Assembly: GCA_023665865.1 (NCBI GenBank)
Contig: JAMPDC010000001.1
Location: 150,134 to 214,133, forward strand
Length of the DNA: 64,000 nucleotides
DNA from: Staphylococcus sp.
GTDB taxonomy: Bacteria > Bacteroidota > Bacteroidia > Bacteroidales > Muribaculaceae
Reading direction: 5' to 3'
Part shown: in pieces, positions 55,515-63,958 of the stretch
How positions within the stretch are numbered: the first letter of the stretch is position 1
Layout: each line of letters opens with the position of its first letter
The notes under the pieces: generated by a model
The model's input: only the letters and a program-made list of their open reading frames with translations
Databases searched by the model: none
What the model was told of the DNA's origin: nothing
Made by a program: the position numbers and the translations under genes

Positions 55515-56390
55515 CTAATCTATGAAGCGGCGTGTCAAATCGCCATAGTTCTCAATACGTCTGTCACGGAGGAAAGGCCACCAACGGCGCACCTGCTCAG
55601 AGCGTTTCATATCCACCTCGACAATAGTCTCTGCCTCCTCGCTGTCCGGCGCAAGATACAGAAGCTCACCTTGAGGCCCGGCGATAAAACTTGAGCCCCA
55701 GAAAGTGATACCGTTTGTAGCGCCTGAAGGATCCGGCTCATGCCCCACTCTGTTGACAGTGACGACAGGAAGACCGTTGGCCACAGCATGGCCACGCTGC
55801 ACAGTGATCCAAGCTTCACGCTGACGTGACTTCTCTTCAGGGGTATCACTGCTCTCCCAGCCGATAGCAGTAGGATAGATCAGCATCTCCGCTCCATTCA
55901 TAGCCATCAGTCGCGCAGCCTCCGGATACCACTGATCCCAGCAGACAAGCACACCGAGACGGCCGAGTAAGGTATCTATCGGTTTGAAACCGAGATCACC
56001 GGGCGTGAAATAGAACTTCTCATAATATGCCGGATCATCGGGGATATGCATCTTGCGATATTTACCCGCCAGCGAGCCGTCTGCATCAAAGACAAGCGAG
56101 GTATTATGGTAAAGACCGGCTGCGCGGCGCTCGAATAATGAGGTTACGAGTACCACACCGGCCTGACGCGCCACTGAGGAGTAGAAGTCGACTGACGGCG
56201 AATCAAGCGCGACTGCCAGATCAAAGTTATCGACTGATTCAACCTGACAGAAATACAGCGAATCATGCAGTTCCTGGAGCACGACGAGTTGGGCGCCTTC
56301 CGCTGCGAGCCGGCAGATCTTATCGCCAAGCCGACGGCGGTTGTTTTCGATATCCACAGTGTTGTGCTGCTGAATTATTCCTATCTTCAT
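55515..56390 (-). CDS. aguB: N-carbamoylputrescine amidase
   Basis: 291-residue nitrilase-family enzyme. Glu in LQELHDSLYFCQ, Lys in KYRKMHIPDDPAYYEKFYF and Cys in LVCWDQWYPEAARLMA form the triad; DDPAYYEKFYFTPGD and the tail are characteristic of the plant/bacterial carbamoylputrescine amidases. It completes agmatine-to-putrescine conversion with aguA 123 bp upstream. Confidence 0.93.
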   Translation of the reverse strand: MKIGIIQQHNTVDIENNRRRLGDKICRLAAEGAQLVVLQELHDSLYFCQVESVDNFDLAVALDSPSVDFYSSVARQAGVVLVTSLFERRAAGLYHNTSLVFDADGSLAGKYRKMHIPDDPAYYEKFYFTPGDLGFKPIDTLLGRLGVLVCWDQWYPEAARLMAMNGAEMLIYPTAIGWESSDTPEEKSRQREAWITVQRGHAVANGLPVVTVNRVGHEPDPSGATNGITFWGSSFIAGPQGELLYLAPDSEEAETIVEVDMKRSEQVRRWWPFLRDRRIENYGDLTRRFID

Positions 56391-56513
56391 GTCTAATTAA
56401 TTTAATGCTATATATCTTATATCTATTTGCTCCGTTTGAGCTATGATTTTCATCGAAAACAGCTCGGGCAAAGCCACACTGTCCCCCGGTTGTTAGGCAG
56501 AGGGAAAAATATT

Positions 56514-57617
56514 TCAGCCAAGAGTCGTATTTTCCACCCAGCAACCATTCTCAATTCCTGCGATGGCACCGACAGGAAACTGCATCGTCACGCAATGGAG
56601 CGACCCATGTTGTCTGATGAGGGCACGGCAATCAATACCGACAACCTCATGCTCCGGGAAAGAGATCTTGAGTGTCTGCGATGCAAGATAGTCTTTCTTA
56701 GGCTGTCCATAGACCGGGAGAAGGATCTGTTTCGGCGTGATTAGAAAGTTCGCATAGGTTGCCGGGAGTATCTCGCCATCCATCTCGATAGTGTCGGGAA
56801 GAGGAAGTTCGATGAGATTATATGGAAGTCCGTCGGGTGTGCGAAGAGTCGAAAGCTCTTCAGCCATTTTGACAAGACCGGCATAGTTAGGCCCCTCGGG
56901 CTCACCTGCGCCACAATAGACTATGGTATTGTCCGGCGCCAGACGAGCTAATGTATCTATATGGCTGTCCGTATCATCTCCGGCAAGCGCACCATGATGC
57001 AACCACAACTGATGGACGAACCCGAATGTCTCAGCAAGATAAGCGGAAATCTCATTGCGGTCTGACTGACCGTTGCGGTTAGGAGACAACAGACATTCGG
57101 CTGTGGTCAGCAATGTGCCGTTGCCATCCGACTCTACAGAGCCTCCCTCAAGGACAAAATTCAAACGATTTTCAAGAGGTGCAGCCATAAAGCCATCTGC
57201 TGACAGCCTGGAATTAATCAGATTATCCTTGTCGGCTGCAAACTTGAGGCCCCAACCGTTAAACTTGAAGTCGAGCAAACGAAGCGAGCCGTTGGCCTCA
57301 ACAGTCAATGCTCCGAAATCACGGGCCCATGTATCATTCGTGGGCATATCCACAAACTTCACCCTGCGCGGATCGAAGTCCTGAGCTTTGACCGACTCCA
57401 GACACAGAGATGCCGGGCCCACCAGAAGCACACATTCCTCGCGGGAAATAGCCTTTACAATCTCGGCGATACAGGCCCTCGCCTCGTCGAGCATATAGTT
57501 CCAATCCGTCTCCTCATGCGGCCATGCGAGCAAGACGCAATCATGTCTTTCCCATTCAGCAGGGAAACGGCGCAACGACACCGGAGTGTCGGAAGCTTCA
57601 TTCATCTTCATAGTCAT
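56514..57617 (-). CDS. aguA: Agmatine deiminase
   Basis: 367 residues, peptidyl-arginine-deiminase fold. MPTNDTWARDFGAL, VLEGGSVESDGNGTLLTT, HHGALAGDDTDSHIDTLARL and the catalytic Cys in RQHGSLHCVTMQFP are conserved. Converts agmatine to N-carbamoylputrescine. The second ATG at 57605, which overlaps the stop of the upstream gene as ATGAATGA, is an equally good start. Confidence 0.95.
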   Translation of the reverse strand: MTMKMNEASDTPVSLRRFPAEWERHDCVLLAWPHEETDWNYMLDEARACIAEIVKAISREECVLLVGPASLCLESVKAQDFDPRRVKFVDMPTNDTWARDFGALTVEANGSLRLLDFKFNGWGLKFAADKDNLINSRLSADGFMAAPLENRLNFVLEGGSVESDGNGTLLTTAECLLSPNRNGQSDRNEISAYLAETFGFVHQLWLHHGALAGDDTDSHIDTLARLAPDNTIVYCGAGEPEGPNYAGLVKMAEELSTLRTPDGLPYNLIELPLPDTIEMDGEILPATYANFLITPKQILLPVYGQPKKDYLASQTLKISFPEHEVVGIDCRALIRQHGSLHCVTMQFPVGAIAGIENGCWVENTTLG

Positions 57618-58773: not shown

Positions 58774-59289
58774 TCAGGACTGACGCCGGCGCAGTGTCAG
58801 AAATTCATAGGCGACTCCTGATCGGGGATCCTCTCGGCTGAACTCCACCGTGGAGGGCATAACCCATCCGTCGTCGACAAGATCAGGGAAAAACGTATCT
58901 GCATCACAGATATCGGCATCTATCAAAGTCAGTTCGACCTTTGAAGCATGAGGGAGCGCCTGACGATAGATTTCCCCACCGCCGATGATGAAACATTCCG
59001 GGGAGGTTCTGCACATAGCCAGAGCCTCCTCCAATGATTCAGCCCTCTCAATCCCCTCGGCAGTATAGGCCGGATTGCGGGTGATCACAATATTGCGTCG
59101 TCCCGGAAGCGCTCCTTTCGGGAAAGATTCAAACGTCTTGCGTCCCATTATGATAGGATGGCCCATGGTGAGCGACTTGAAACGCTTCAGATCATCGCTT
59201 ATATGGAAGAGCAGGTCACCGCGGCGTCCGATTGCCATATTTCGGGTGACAGCAACTATTATCGTTACTTCTGCCGGCTGTTTTGTCAT
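58774..59289 (-). CDS. folA: Dihydrofolate reductase
   Basis: 171 residues. [50 protein letters not shown] covers the family N-terminus, with the catalytic Asp in HISDD and the NADPH-binding MGRKTF and RRNIVITRN. Regenerates tetrahydrofolate used by ThyA. Overlaps thyA by 4 bp, and ends 4 bp from the DUF4136 stop. Confidence 0.96.
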
Positions 59290-60080
59290 ACTGCAACTGT
59301 GGCTTTGATATGTGGCTGAGCTTCATAGTCACGAAGCTCAAAATCCTCATATTTGAAATCAAAAATATTCTTCACATCCGGATTGATGTGCATGGTGGGC
59401 AACTTGCCGGGTGTACGGGCCAGCTGAGTCTTCACCTGCTCGAAATGATTGTGATAGATGTGGGTATCCCCAAGCGTATGCACGAACTCACCCGGTTTCA
59501 GGCCTGTCACCTGCGCAACCATCATCAGCAATAAAGCGTATGACGCTATATTGAAGGGCACACCAAGGAAACAATCGGCACTGCGCTGATAGAGCATGAG
59601 CGAAAGTCGGCCGTCAGCCACATAGAACTGAAACAGAAGATGGCACGGAGGCAGAGCCATGTCCGGGACAGAGGCTACATTCCATGCGCTCACGATGATA
59701 CGGCGGGACTCCGGATTGTTCTTTATGGTCTCTATCACTTCTGCGATCTGATCGATATGACCTCCGTTATAGTCGGGCCATGACCTCCATTGGTAACCAT
59801 AGACGGGGCCAAGCTCTCCATCCGGAGAAGCCCATTCATTCCATATCCTGACTCCGTTTTCCTGTAGATAACGCACATTGGTGTCACCTTTCAGAAACCA
59901 AAGGAGCTCATGGATGATTGACTTCAGGTGGAGCTTCTTGGTCGTCAGCAACGGGAAACCTTTACTAAGGTCAAAACGCATCTGATAGCCGAATATGCTG
60001 CGTGTTCCCGTGCCGGTCCTGTCACCGCGGTCAACGCCTTCGCTCATTATCTTGTCAAGAAGTTCGAGATATTGTTTCAT
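59286..60080 (-). CDS. thyA: Thymidylate synthase
   Basis: 264 residues. [12 protein letters not shown], the active-site Cys in [35 protein letters not shown] and [10 protein letters not shown]. Methylates dUMP with methylene-tetrahydrofolate. Followed directly by folA, the standard thyA-folA pair. Confidence 0.98.
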
Positions 60081-60114
60081 GAATCAAATTCCATTTTTAT
60101 TTTGTAACAACAGC

Positions 60115-61692
60115 TTATGCAAGTCCGCCAACCATTATAGCTTTAGGAGCTGACGGGCAAACATATTGACACGATCCGCACCCTATACACTTATCGGGAT
60201 CTACCACTGGATATGGCCCCCGTGCCTCATCGCCTCCCGGTATCATTGTGATGGCCCCTGAAGGACAACGGCGCGAGCAAGCGCCACAATTCACTCCTTG
60301 CGAATACGAAATGCAGAGATTACGGTCAGTCACGGCAAGACCGACACGCGAACGATGTTTCTCGGATACGGTCAGAGGGTGTAAAGCTTCAGTCGGACAT
60401 AGATTCGAACAGAGCGTGCAGTCATATATGCACCACGATGAATTGAAGTCCATCACCGGATGGAGCGCACGGAGCAAACCGAATTCTTTGAGAGATACCT
60501 TGATGACTTTCTGAGGGCAACGGTCGATACAGAGTCCGCACCCTGTGCAACGGTCAAGAAATTCCCTCCTGGATTTGACCCCGGGCGGAGTCACCGCGAG
60601 GAGGTTACGGCGATCAGATGCCTGCTGCATACCTTCGACCTTTTCCACCGCTTTTGCAGCCTTAGCCGCCACGGGGACTGCAGCAGCGATCAGACCAATC
60701 GAGAGGAACTTACGTCTGTCGAGCGGTACCGCCGGTTTCAAATTGGCGGTCTGTTTATCTGATGCAGCAGTCTTCTCTGCGCTCATCCCTACCTGTCCGT
60801 CGCCGCAACCGGCAGCCGAACCGGCAATCGGATTTTTCACACGCTGCATCAACGGTATGGAGAGCTGATGGCGATTGTAGGTATATGATATGGCATCCGC
60901 CGGACACACCGGTAGACAATCAAAACACACCACACAACGCGATGTATCGACGACATGGCTCTGAAGATCTATACAAGATGCTTTGCACACATGCTCACAT
61001 TTACGACACTGGATACACTTATCCGTATTGATGTCAATGCGGAATATGGAATAGTTCGAGATAAAACTAAGAGTAGTGCCTACGGGACAGACGGTGTTGC
61101 AAAACGTGCGGCCATTCCTGAAGGCAAGCACACTGATCGTGAGCATTGTCACAATGGTAATCACAAGCCCGAGCATTGATGCAAGCCCGATTTTGACCGG
61201 CGGATATGAGTAGAAATCATTCCAGACATTAAGAATCATCCCCCAGGCAGGCCTGAGAACCTCCATGGCAAACCGGCCGAATATGCTGTAGGGATCCAGA
61301 AGGCTTGTGACTGCCGAGACTCCAAGCACAATGGAAAGCGCCACGATAAAAAGCATGATGCGGCGCAGGCGGGTCAGCGGGAGACTGTAATGGTAATGCC
61401 AACGGGCCCTCACCCGTCCGAGGCGAGGCAATCTGGCGCAGATATCCTGAAAGGTGCCGAGTGGACAGACAGTCGAACAATAGACGCGGCCAAATATCAA
61501 GGTGACGAGGAGCCAGACGACAAATGTTGTCATCGCAAACGCCATCGCAGCCGGAAGCAGTTGCACCTTTGCAAGCCACGCAGCCATCGCCGGAAGCTCC
61601 ATGCCGAAATCAGCAAAAAGCCCGACAAGCAGCGAGAACGCTGCAACCGCAACAACTATGCGCGAAATCCTGAGTATATTAGCCGGGACCAT
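60115..61692 (-). CDS. NapH-NapG-like fusion: multi-heme-free Fe-S electron-transfer protein with internal Tat signal
   Basis: 525 residues from ATG 61692 (MVPANILRIS). The N-half has about five membrane helices, CxxxCP pairs near 72 and 198 (YCSTVCPLG, FCNTVCPVG) and two 4Fe-4S clusters (CIQCRKCEHVC near 226; CVVCFDCLPVC near 253), as in NapH/quinol-oxidising proteins. Then a Tat-like RRKFLSIG at about 326-333 with a hydrophobic stretch, and a C-half with four more 4Fe-4S sites (near 382, 421, 460-474, 502), as in NapG. No nap catalytic gene is present. It overlaps the upstream Fe-S gene by one base. Electron partner unknown. Confidence 0.82.
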   Translation of the reverse strand: MVPANILRISRIVVAVAAFSLLVGLFADFGMELPAMAAWLAKVQLLPAAMAFAMTTFVVWLLVTLIFGRVYCSTVCPLGTFQDICARLPRLGRVRARWHYHYSLPLTRLRRIMLFIVALSIVLGVSAVTSLLDPYSIFGRFAMEVLRPAWGMILNVWNDFYSYPPVKIGLASMLGLVITIVTMLTISVLAFRNGRTFCNTVCPVGTTLSFISNYSIFRIDINTDKCIQCRKCEHVCKASCIDLQSHVVDTSRCVVCFDCLPVCPADAISYTYNRHQLSIPLMQRVKNPIAGSAAGCGDGQVGMSAEKTAASDKQTANLKPAVPLDRRKFLSIGLIAAAVPVAAKAAKAVEKVEGMQQASDRRNLLAVTPPGVKSRREFLDRCTGCGLCIDRCPQKVIKVSLKEFGLLRALHPVMDFNSSWCIYDCTLCSNLCPTEALHPLTVSEKHRSRVGLAVTDRNLCISYSQGVNCGACSRRCPSGAITMIPGGDEARGPYPVVDPDKCIGCGSCQYVCPSAPKAIMVGGLA

Positions 61693-62159
61693 CAAATCTG
61701 TTGACAACGTAAATCGCGCAACACATCCGTGAGCGCTGTAATGTTTGACATCTGTTGAGGTATGTTGATTTTGACCGGACATGTAGGCACACACTGCCCA
61801 CAGCTTATACAATGTTGCGACTGCACTTTATCCGGAAACTTATCCTCATAATCCAAAAGAAATTTCCGTCCTTTTTCAGCGAAATCAGGATCATCGAGAG
61901 CGCCGGGCATGGCACCTTCCCGCAGAGCCCGGTCGACAAAAATAAAATTGCTCGGAATATCGATGCCATAGGGACATGGCATGCAATTATCACAAGCGAC
62001 ACAATCAATCTCACTGAGAGGATGGTAGGCGGAAGCAAGCCGCTCCCCCACACTCCTGACATCGCGCGAGATATCCGGGCGACATGAACTCAGGACCGAA
62101 GGCACAAGCAGCGCGCCTCCGGCTCTCAGGAGCCATTGTCTACGGGTCATATTTTGCAT
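61692..62159 (-). CDS. Tat-exported 4Fe-4S lipoprotein resembling the C-terminal part of aldo/keto reductase-like Fe-S proteins
   Basis: 155 residues. Tat-like TRRQWLLRAGGALLVPS, with LSSC26 as a possible lipobox. Two Fe-S motifs: CVACDNCMPC (C53-x2-C-x2-C-x2-C62) followed by PYGIDIPSNF, and CISCGQCVPTC (C117-C127) followed by PVKINIPQQM. The same arrangement occurs at the C-terminus of aldo/keto reductase proteins with a 4Fe-4S module, but the reductase barrel is absent here. Coupled to the NapH-NapG-like gene (TGATG overlap). The ATG at 62150 is an alternative start. Confidence 0.8.
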   Translation of the reverse strand: MQNMTRRQWLLRAGGALLVPSVLSSCRPDISRDVRSVGERLASAYHPLSEIDCVACDNCMPCPYGIDIPSNFIFVDRALREGAMPGALDDPDFAEKGRKFLLDYEDKFPDKVQSQHCISCGQCVPTCPVKINIPQQMSNITALTDVLRDLRCQQI

Positions 62160-62256: not shown

Positions 62257-62742
62257 TCAACGGCCCATATCGGTGAGCGTGGCTACAGCCATGGCTGAGA
62301 TGCCCTCACCGCGACCCTCGAAGCCAAGACGCTCTGTGGTAGTGGCCTTGACCGATACACAATCGGCCGGAATATTCAGATCAGCAGCGATATTGGCTAT
62401 CATCTGCGGGATATATGTCAGCAATTTGGGGCGTTGGGCTATGATGGTCACATCAACATTGTTGACAGTCATATTTTTCTCACCGATAATCTCTATCACA
62501 CGGCGGAGAAGCACCCGCGAATCTGCGCCCCTATATTCTTCGGCCGTATCAGGGAAGTGATAACCTATATCACGCATGGCAGCAGCGCCAAGCAACGCAT
62601 CGGATAGCGCATGGAGCGCCACATCTGCATCGCTGTGTCCGAGCAATCCTTTCTCATAAGGGATTTTCACTCCACACAGTATCAAATCCCTGTCTTCGAC
62701 AAGACGATGGACATCATAGCCCATACCGGTGCGTATCATCAT
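62257..62742 (-). CDS. ispF: 2-C-methyl-D-erythritol 2,4-cyclodiphosphate synthase
   Basis: 161 residues. The zinc ligands are visible in [15 protein letters not shown] and [17 protein letters not shown], with the tail [20 protein letters not shown]-pathway cyclase. It starts 22 bp after porV; there is no ispD or ispE beside it. Confidence 0.97.
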
Positions 62743-62764: not shown

Positions 62765-63958
62765 TTACTTACGCCCGAAGATTTCCTTCAGGCCATCCAT
62801 ATCAAATGTCAGGGTGAAGCGGAGAGTCTGATCAAGAGGTGAATTCTGAGAAGTCGCTATCATATAGCTGGCGTCGAGACGGAGGACATTGAGCGCGAAT
62901 CCGGCTCCAAGGGCAAAATACTGCTGATTACCCTTCTTCGGATTCTGATAGTTGTAGCCACCGCGGAGGAAGAACTGCTGATTGTAATTATACTCCGCAC
63001 CGATGGCGACACAGACCTCTCTGAGCTCTTCGGCAAATCCACCGGGAGCATCCGAGAATGACTTGAAGATACCGGTGATCGACGACATGTTCTGCCAATC
63101 CTCGTATGCCTTCACATATTCAATCTCGCCATCCGTATCATCCGCATAGTCTACGCGGCGAGGCATAGTCGGGACGAGGAGCTTGTTGAGATCAAGATTG
63201 AGGGCAAGGTTATGGTAGTCGGCGAGCGGGAATGTGAAAGATGTTCCCAAGCGGAGATTCGTCGGAAGGAAGGCCGGATTGTCGCCGTGATTGTAGCTTA
63301 CCTTGGAACCGATATTGGAAATATCCCAACCCCATGACCACTGGCACTCATTACGTCCGATGATCGGATATGAGGTGAAATAGCCTGAGATGTCGGCGGC
63401 AAATGCCGAAGCGCCTGTCGACTGGTCGCCGGCATAGCTCTCGCTGAAACCAAGGTCCGAATAGATGTAGCGGAACACTACGCCCATCGAGAACTTATCG
63501 GACAGTTTGCGCGAATAACCGATATCAAAACTCATCTCGTAAGGATTGAGCGTATGGCTGAATTGTCCGTCAAGTCCTGACGAGACCTCACCAAGTGAAA
63601 AATAACGCAGCGAGGCTGAGATCGCCTGATTGTCCTCGTAGCCGAATTTCCAATAGCCGGCGAGATTGGCAAGGAATATATCATTGACAAGTTTACGGAG
63701 CCACGGGGTATAGCTCAATGCCACAGACCCCTTTGAATAAGCAAAGGCATATTTCGATGGATTCCAAAACTGGCTGTTGGCATCAGGGTCAGTAGCCGCG
63801 CCGATGTCACCCATGCCGGCACCGCGGGCATCCGGAGCGATACCGAGCGATGTCACACCTGTCTGAATCGGGTTGAACTCGTCTTTCTGTGCAAATGAAG
63901 CGAAGGTACCGCACATTGCGATGACCACTACCGCTACTATATTTCTGATCACTGTCAT
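62765..63958 (-). CDS. porV: Type IX secretion outer-membrane protein PorV (LptO)
   Basis: 397 residues, FadL-like barrel. Signal peptide (about 1-23, TFASFAQ), then [50 protein letters not shown], the defining N-terminal region of PorV, and a barrel end in [12 protein letters not shown]. PorV carries T9SS cargo to the attachment complex. porU, its usual upstream neighbour, would lie beyond the window end; the last 40 bases are too few to judge. Confidence 0.93.

Follow-up and report, generated by a model that had tools for sequence, protein, structure and literature searches.

A NapH-NapG-like fusion with an internal twin-arginine motif and a Tat-signal ferredoxin neighbor at a thyA locus in Muribaculaceae

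The window analyzed here is a 64,000-nucleotide stretch of the genome of a gut bacterium of the Muribaculaceae (assembly GCA_023665865.1), and coordinates are positions within it unless a locus or contig is named. At 60115..61692, the minus strand encodes a 525-residue protein that joins a NapH-like half to a NapG-like half, with no stop and no frame break between 61692 and 60115. These limits are the ones given in the initial annotation of this DNA, which did not name the strand. The assignment is based on the translation and on matches to the profiles TIGR02163 (NapH/MauN side; E 2.7e-24) and PRK09476 (NapG; E 4.9e-24), the second of which spans residues 325-521 and begins at the Tat motif. 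The two halves thus match the profiles of the NapGH proteins known from E. coli and Wolinella, yet with scores far below the curated cutoffs (86.1 versus 213.05 for TIGR02163 and 84.9 versus 269 for PRK09476). In periplasmic nitrate reduction, moreover, napG and napH are separate genes, whereas the window protein is one chain. Among solved structures, 18 relatives of ferredoxin type were found at E <=0.001, none of them named NapG or NapH.

The NapH-like membrane half, residues 1-285 (60838..61692), is delimited by the profiles and by relatives that are made of the NapH half alone. Hydropathy predicts four transmembrane segments in this half: TM1 at residues 9-27 (61612..61668), TM2 at 49-67 (61492..61548), TM3 at 114-132 (61297..61353), and TM4 at 173-191 (61120..61176). 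Two CX3CPxG motifs follow TM2 and TM4, at residues 72-79 (61456..61479) and 198-205 (61078..61101), and two 4Fe-4S motifs of the form CX2CX2CX3C, predicted to lie on the cytoplasmic side, occupy residues 226-236 (60985..61017) and 253-263 (60904..60936). Residues C72, C76, and P77 of the first CX3CPxG, C198, C202, and P203 of the second, and the four cysteines of each cluster motif are invariant in alignment A1, which has 14 rows (row L001 shows an X there and was omitted from alignment A3). The NapG-like half holds four further 4Fe-4S motifs: CX2CX2CX3C at residues 382-392 (60517..60549), predicted to be periplasmic; CX3CX2CX3CP at 421-433 (60394..60432); CX8CX2CX3CP at 460-477 (60262..60315), recognized by eye on the translation; and CX2CX2CX3C at 502-512 (60157..60189). 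The fusion accordingly has six canonical 4Fe-4S motifs, two in the membrane half and four in the half that would be exported, along with two CX3CP motifs, and this is the complement first reported for each half. All of these features lie on the minus strand.

Between the halves, a motif search and comparison with homologous fusions identified the twin arginine of a DRRKFL sequence at residues 326-327 (60712..60717), confirming the join that had been placed at about residue 326 of one open frame. The RR pair stands directly before the last and least hydrophobic transmembrane segment, TM5 (residues 328-346; 60655..60711), a weakly hydrophobic helix of Tat type with a Kyte-Doolittle value of 1.57 versus 2.27-2.51 for TM1-4. 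By eye, lysines are found at positions 344, close to the end of TM5, 347, and 351, and a 25-residue stretch scored for charge in the window protein (row L081) gave +4/-3. Arginine is abundant in the TM2-TM3 loop, where the first CX3CP lies. Since positively charged loops stay cytoplasmic according to the positive-inside rule, we infer from the sequence that this loop and the RR stretch lie on the cytoplasmic side.

The architecture of the fusion is not new, being known in other microbes. Tooke et al. (2017; PMC5449189) describe polyferredoxin Q1NSB0 of the delta proteobacterium MLMS-1 as a fusion of NapH and NapG in which RR immediately precedes TMD5; thus, the separateness of NapH and NapG, which the initial annotation had drawn from known Nap systems, does not hold as a general rule. 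Constructs joining the five MLMS-1 TMDs to MBP or AmiA were exported, but not in a tat mutant (AmiA) or after substitution of RR by KK (both reporters), and release from Sec was attributed to the low hydrophobicity of TMD5 and to the positive charges after it (PMC5449189). The window protein is like the MLMS-1 protein, as described in the parts of that paper used here, in being a fusion with five predicted TMDs, a weak TMD5 that has RR directly in front of it and positive charges behind it, and four exported 4Fe-4S sites. It differs on the cytoplasmic side, where it has two canonical motifs and two CX3CP motifs; for MLMS-1, seven 4Fe-4S clusters are reported, three cytoplasmic and four exported (PMC5449189). 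In the same parts of the paper, the polyferredoxin family is named for Chloroflexi, Nitrospirae, and Euryarchaeota, with a few others added in a table, Bacteroidetes appear under another family and not among the polyferredoxin examples, and gene neighborhoods are not met in the discussion of MLMS-1 (PMC5449189). A three-helix actinobacterial Rieske protein likewise uses Sec for its first helices and Tat for its last, but its exported part is an unrelated Rieske 2Fe-2S domain of a bc complex (PMC5449189). Taken with the conservation of the RR pair, the hydropathy profile, and the TatC gene found in the window genome, this homologous architecture, tested in MLMS-1 (PMC5449189), supports the topology suggested at the outset, in which RR would be cytoplasmic, the C-half would cross, and the N-half would stay in the membrane. 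By analogy, export of the window protein would likewise depend on Tat and on the twin arginine.

Just upstream of the fusion, the minus strand encodes a 155-residue ferredoxin (61692..62159) with a Tat signal (RR at 6-7), a lipobox-like LSSC (Cys26), and two ferredoxin motifs; its stop codon and the start codon of the fusion share one base (TGATG; gap of -1). Downstream, across a 34-bp gap, lies a conserved neighbor, a thyA-like gene (59286..60080, minus strand), which is followed by a folA-like gene (58774..59289, minus strand). An ispF-like gene (62257..62742, minus strand) lies upstream and is a neighbor in many members of the genus, being seldom seen in the examined flanks of other genera. 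The names thyA, folA, and ispF are putative assignments from the sequences. In the window (58774-61692) and at the thyA-locus loci, thyA and folA remain linked where no ispF was seen upstream.

Homologs of the fusion are widespread. In a first sample consisting of the window genome and 60 relatives, all 61 genomes yielded a protein match at E 1e-3, many of these covering a single half or falling on weaker ferredoxins; family-wide, 182 of 198 genomes match the fusion protein at E 1e-40. The fusion is found in seven other genomes of the same genus at 66-72% identity and in two further genomes at 55-56%. That genus includes Duncaniella muris DSM 103720, and the NapH rows of L003 and G012 are identical. 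Loci L008-L013, in records labeled Planctomycetota, Hydrogenedentota, Thermoguttaceae, Phycisphaerae, and Alphaproteobacteria, likewise encode fusions that contain an internal RR. The linker contains RR in 52/52 distinct homologous fusions (in rows L002 and L157, the search pattern caught another RR first). A stricter motif, RRx[FM][LIMFV], is present in 51 of the 52, compared to 0/36 NapH-only tails; the single row that it missed, L161, contains SRRRFL, and undetermined bases there broke the bounding motif.

These data leave next to no probability that a sequencing or assembly artifact fused two genes. Both halves lie in single open frames at 52 distinct loci from independent assemblies, on which ground we rejected an assembly artifact. 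In addition, no remnant of a separate NapG was found between NapH and thyA at the 13 NapH-only loci searched, the weak NapG matches at these 13 loci falling inside the NapH half. Two separate genes in close relatives, which the initial annotation had named as a sign of such an error, were not found: close relatives carry either the fusion or just one of its halves. Neighboring but separate NapG- and NapH-like genes were met once, at the distant locus L200. This locus (G052:C625, 2673-4134), from another family of the order, encodes the two as adjacent genes with 30% and 24% identity to the window halves.

The window genome contains a second fusion (C1:1498032-1499495) in which RR is kept and each half is 42% identical to its counterpart in the window. 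At this paralogous locus, near C1:1496.6-1499.5 kb, a 507-residue frame with the fusion is followed by a 469-residue aldo/keto reductase (AKR) that has a Tat signal, a lipobox, an AKR barrel (PF00248; E 5.5e-37), and a ferredoxin-like Fe-S tail. It is one of two AKRs in the genome. The C-terminal tail of this AKR resembles the window ferredoxin (36% identity), in which no match to the barrel PF00248 was found up to E 0.01. The AKR-linked paralog thus shares the architecture of the window fusion and differs from it in belonging to a separate clade and in its partner, an AKR after the fusion rather than a free ferredoxin before it. The earlier statement that there is no catalytic partner stands in part: the catalytic domain is missing at the window locus, while an overlapping Tat-signal ferredoxin is present whose counterpart is part of an AKR enzyme.

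By eye, the N-termini of such AKRs contain RR in 17/18 cases and RK in the remaining one, L196 (20 loci were given, of which L161 and L197 yielded no row), and a scripted pattern combining RR and lipobox fitted 11/18. Among 20 free-standing ferredoxins (18 at thyA loci plus those of L136 and L139, whose flanks lack thyA), RR is present in 20/20 and a lipobox-like Cys, judged by eye, in 15/20. Outside the family, in others of the order, an AKR adjoins the fusion at L106, L107, L189, L195, L196, and L197, and a Tat-signal DUF362 protein of 305-310 residues is encoded directly upstream of the fusion at L190, L192, L193, and L198; L194 has neither neighbor. Since the neighbors differ between families, the partners appear to change while the wire stays. 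The DUF362 protein is a possible third kind of client of the fusion. As a partner in the window's own genome it was rejected, no DUF362 match being found in that genome (88.75% complete). At L150 (G171:C2, 4171-5540), the AKR barrel and the ferredoxin tail are apparently in different frames, with the tail in a 118-residue frame, possibly reflecting a frameshift or a broken gene.

Our searches returned 91 distinct loci, which are not a random sample (11 duplicate loci were skipped, and L001, L008-L080, and L188-L211 lie outside this count). At the thyA locus, 16 of these have the fusion with the ferredoxin, 16 have the fusion without it, 33 have the NapH half alone, and 2 have the NapG half with the ferredoxin; the others are 17 AKR-linked fusions and seven loci without assignment. 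In 16 of the 32 thyA-locus fusions, then, the ferredoxin gene was not found in the examined flanks, and a motif search for a divergent ferredoxin in their upstream flanks, which are short (0.6 kb in L141), found none in 16/16; the ferredoxin is therefore not obligatory. There is no thyA within at least 1.5 kb downstream at L136, L139, L152, and L166 and none within 2.1 kb at L210, so that the link to thyA is strong, not absolute. Among the 33 NapH-only genes, 20 overlap thyA, by 1 to 82 bases.

A tree of the NapH half (92 rows, 4 of them outgroup), which was built quickly, with no bootstrap and with a weak root, contains an AKR-linked group of 18 rows (SH-aLRT 96), of which one, L187, is unassigned, and a thyA-linked group of 70 rows (SH-aLRT 95). 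L008, dropped in the BLAST choice of NapH rows, was restored as an outgroup row. The NapH-only label changes 8 times on this tree, at least 3 of them on well-supported branches. Both halves are in one frame at 17/17 AKR-linked loci, from this family and two others of the order, and at 9/14 order-level loci (L188-L201), the remaining five being contig ends or single halves (L188, L189, L199, and L201) and the separate pair (L200). Because one frame prevails in both sets, the fusion probably came first. Whether dual-targeted proteins arose from joined neighbor genes or are single chains that were later split is a question that Tooke et al. did not decide (PMC5449189). The presence of the fusion at all 17 AKR-linked loci, together with single halves within the thyA clade, points to separation after fusion in this lineage. 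For the AKR tail and the free ferredoxin, the midpoint-rooted tree did not polarize the direction of change.

The gradation of states at the thyA locus (16/16/33/2) and the 8 NapH-only changes, at least 3 of them well supported, could also be read as decay. The thyA-locus copy would then be a failing duplicate of the AKR-linked fusion that lost the barrel, the ferredoxin, and the NapG half stepwise and has little or no electron-transfer role left. We consider this unlikely, since 35/36 NapH-only copies keep their motifs (no fewer than two of CX3CP and two of 4Fe-4S type), NapH-only copies adjoin thyA in several genera, and all six cluster motifs are intact in the window genome.

In two genomes of genus g53 (L142:2499-3606 and L143:1822-2948), a lone NapG half with a Tat signal and a lipobox-like LTSC lies beside the ferredoxin and thyA-folA, and no NapH half was seen at these two loci. 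Such lone halves, with a Tat signal and a lipobox-like Cys of their own, would be in keeping with translation of the NapG half of the fusion also from an internal start before RR, at Met303, to give a free Tat precursor. However, Met303 is not conserved, since L001 and L002 have Val at the aligned position and L003 has Thr, and we rejected this very improbable alternative on that ground.

If the NapG-like half is exported by Tat, its distribution might follow that of the Tat system. Of the 198 family genomes, 170 gave a TatC match, 146 one to the NapG half (E 1e-20), and 135 one to the ferredoxin or AKR tail (E 1e-8). TatC and the NapG half occur together in 136 genomes, TatC only in 34, the NapG half only in 10, and neither in 18 (Fisher test, 4.8e-6, with related genomes counted as independent); in these tallies, 8 genomes without TatC and 32 without the NapG half were assigned by elimination. 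The corresponding numbers are 104, 20, 3, and 13 for the 140 genomes that are at least 90% complete and 87, 14, 1, and 11 for the 113 that are at least 95% complete. Among the 95 genomes at or above 97%, the NapG half is present in 0/11 without TatC and 71/84 with TatC (Fisher test, 3.2e-8). Permutation within genera gave p values of about 5e-4 for genomes at least 95% complete and 3.5e-4 for the full set. On the thyA-locus tree (51 rows, from genomes listed as at least 90% complete), 8 independent pairs differ in TatC; the NapG half differs in the same direction in 1-2 of them, in the opposite direction in 0, and not at all in the rest, which is not significant. TatC-less genomes often have TatC-bearing neighbors already without the NapG half, indicating that loss of the NapG half mostly came before loss of Tat. 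We take the exported half to be a Tat client that is absent along with Tat, and we do not read each deletion as caused by loss of Tat. One counter-case, G189 (96% complete), has the fusion, and TatC was not found in it; G105 (92%) and G119 (90%) hold the NapG half, again with TatC not found. Three TatC matches each were seen in G035 (one partial) and G213, and two in several other genomes.

The reading that we favor, and hold to be probable, is that the fusion is a dual-targeted membrane polyferredoxin, handled by Sec and then by Tat, that relays electrons from quinol to a periplasmic ferredoxin. Sec would insert the four N-terminal helices so that the CX3CP motifs, together with two 4Fe-4S clusters, face the cytoplasm. 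The weak fifth helix and its RR would be released from Sec and taken by Tat, which would carry the folded four-cluster NapG-like domain to the periplasm. The NapH half would oxidize menaquinol, as proposed for NapGH, and electrons would travel along the one polypeptide and on to a dicluster ferredoxin, the Tat-exported lipoprotein that the overlapping gene would encode. At the paralogous locus, where a related ferredoxin domain forms the end of a Tat-signal AKR, the wire would end directly in the enzyme; at the window locus, where the barrel is missing, the ferredoxin would have to hand its electrons to an unlinked acceptor. We infer the cluster content, the quinol donor, the direction of flow, the docking of the ferredoxin, and the final acceptor. 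A Nap system in the strict sense was rejected: a search for NapA-type molybdoenzymes (PF00384) returned 0 matches in the window genome, an absence that is not final at 88.75% completeness, and the same search was positive in 11/14 control genomes. The lack of a molybdopterin oxidoreductase argues that the locus is not part of a Nap system.

The source of the electrons is where the quinol reading has a serious rival. With the same topology, a cytoplasmic donor such as ferredoxin or flavodoxin could feed the two cytoplasmic clusters, and the protein would then be a conduit of low potential and not a quinol dehydrogenase. By its potential, quinol would be a poor donor for a carbonyl-reducing AKR partner; the cysteines of the cytoplasmic-side 4Fe-4S motifs do not vary among the 14 rows of A1, and the NapH half stands alone at 33 thyA-locus loci. 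Against this, the membrane half is similar to NapH/MauN, for which the accepted role is quinol oxidation (PMC5449189), and no donor gene is linked to the fusion. We therefore regard a cytoplasmic donor as possible and quinol as the better candidate.

Beyond the quinol-to-ferredoxin relay itself, the distribution of the halves permits a broader and doubtful conjecture. An ancestral one-chain wire may have been split repeatedly and in both directions, leaving either NapH on its own or NapG on its own as a lipoprotein exported by Tat. The exported half would have disappeared before Tat did, and the retained NapH half would serve the thyA-folA operon independently of Tat. The AKR, the AKR-tail ferredoxin, and the DUF362 protein, all exported by Tat, would be interchangeable clients of a generic exit.

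What appears new here is the ferredoxin partner and the thyA-locus context, both absent from the literature searched, in which we recognized no paper that deals with the thyA locus or with an exported AKR partnered in this way. The locus connects the proposed wire in the membrane with an AKR bearing a Tat signal, with a ferredoxin that lacks the barrel, and, elsewhere in the order, with DUF362 proteins. The exported half is missing in many relatives, and the small ferredoxin partner is unusual. These genes offer concrete partners for tests in a named relative, for example, Duncaniella muris, the species of locus L003.

Elsewhere in the window, the minus strand at 55515-57617 contains two adjacent genes that we take to resemble those for carbamoylputrescine amidase and agmatine deiminase. 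At 62765-63958, also on the minus strand, lies a gene for a 397-residue protein of predicted outer-membrane type, presumably resembling PorV of type IX secretion. The PorV-like gene is located upstream of ispF in several members of the genus as well.
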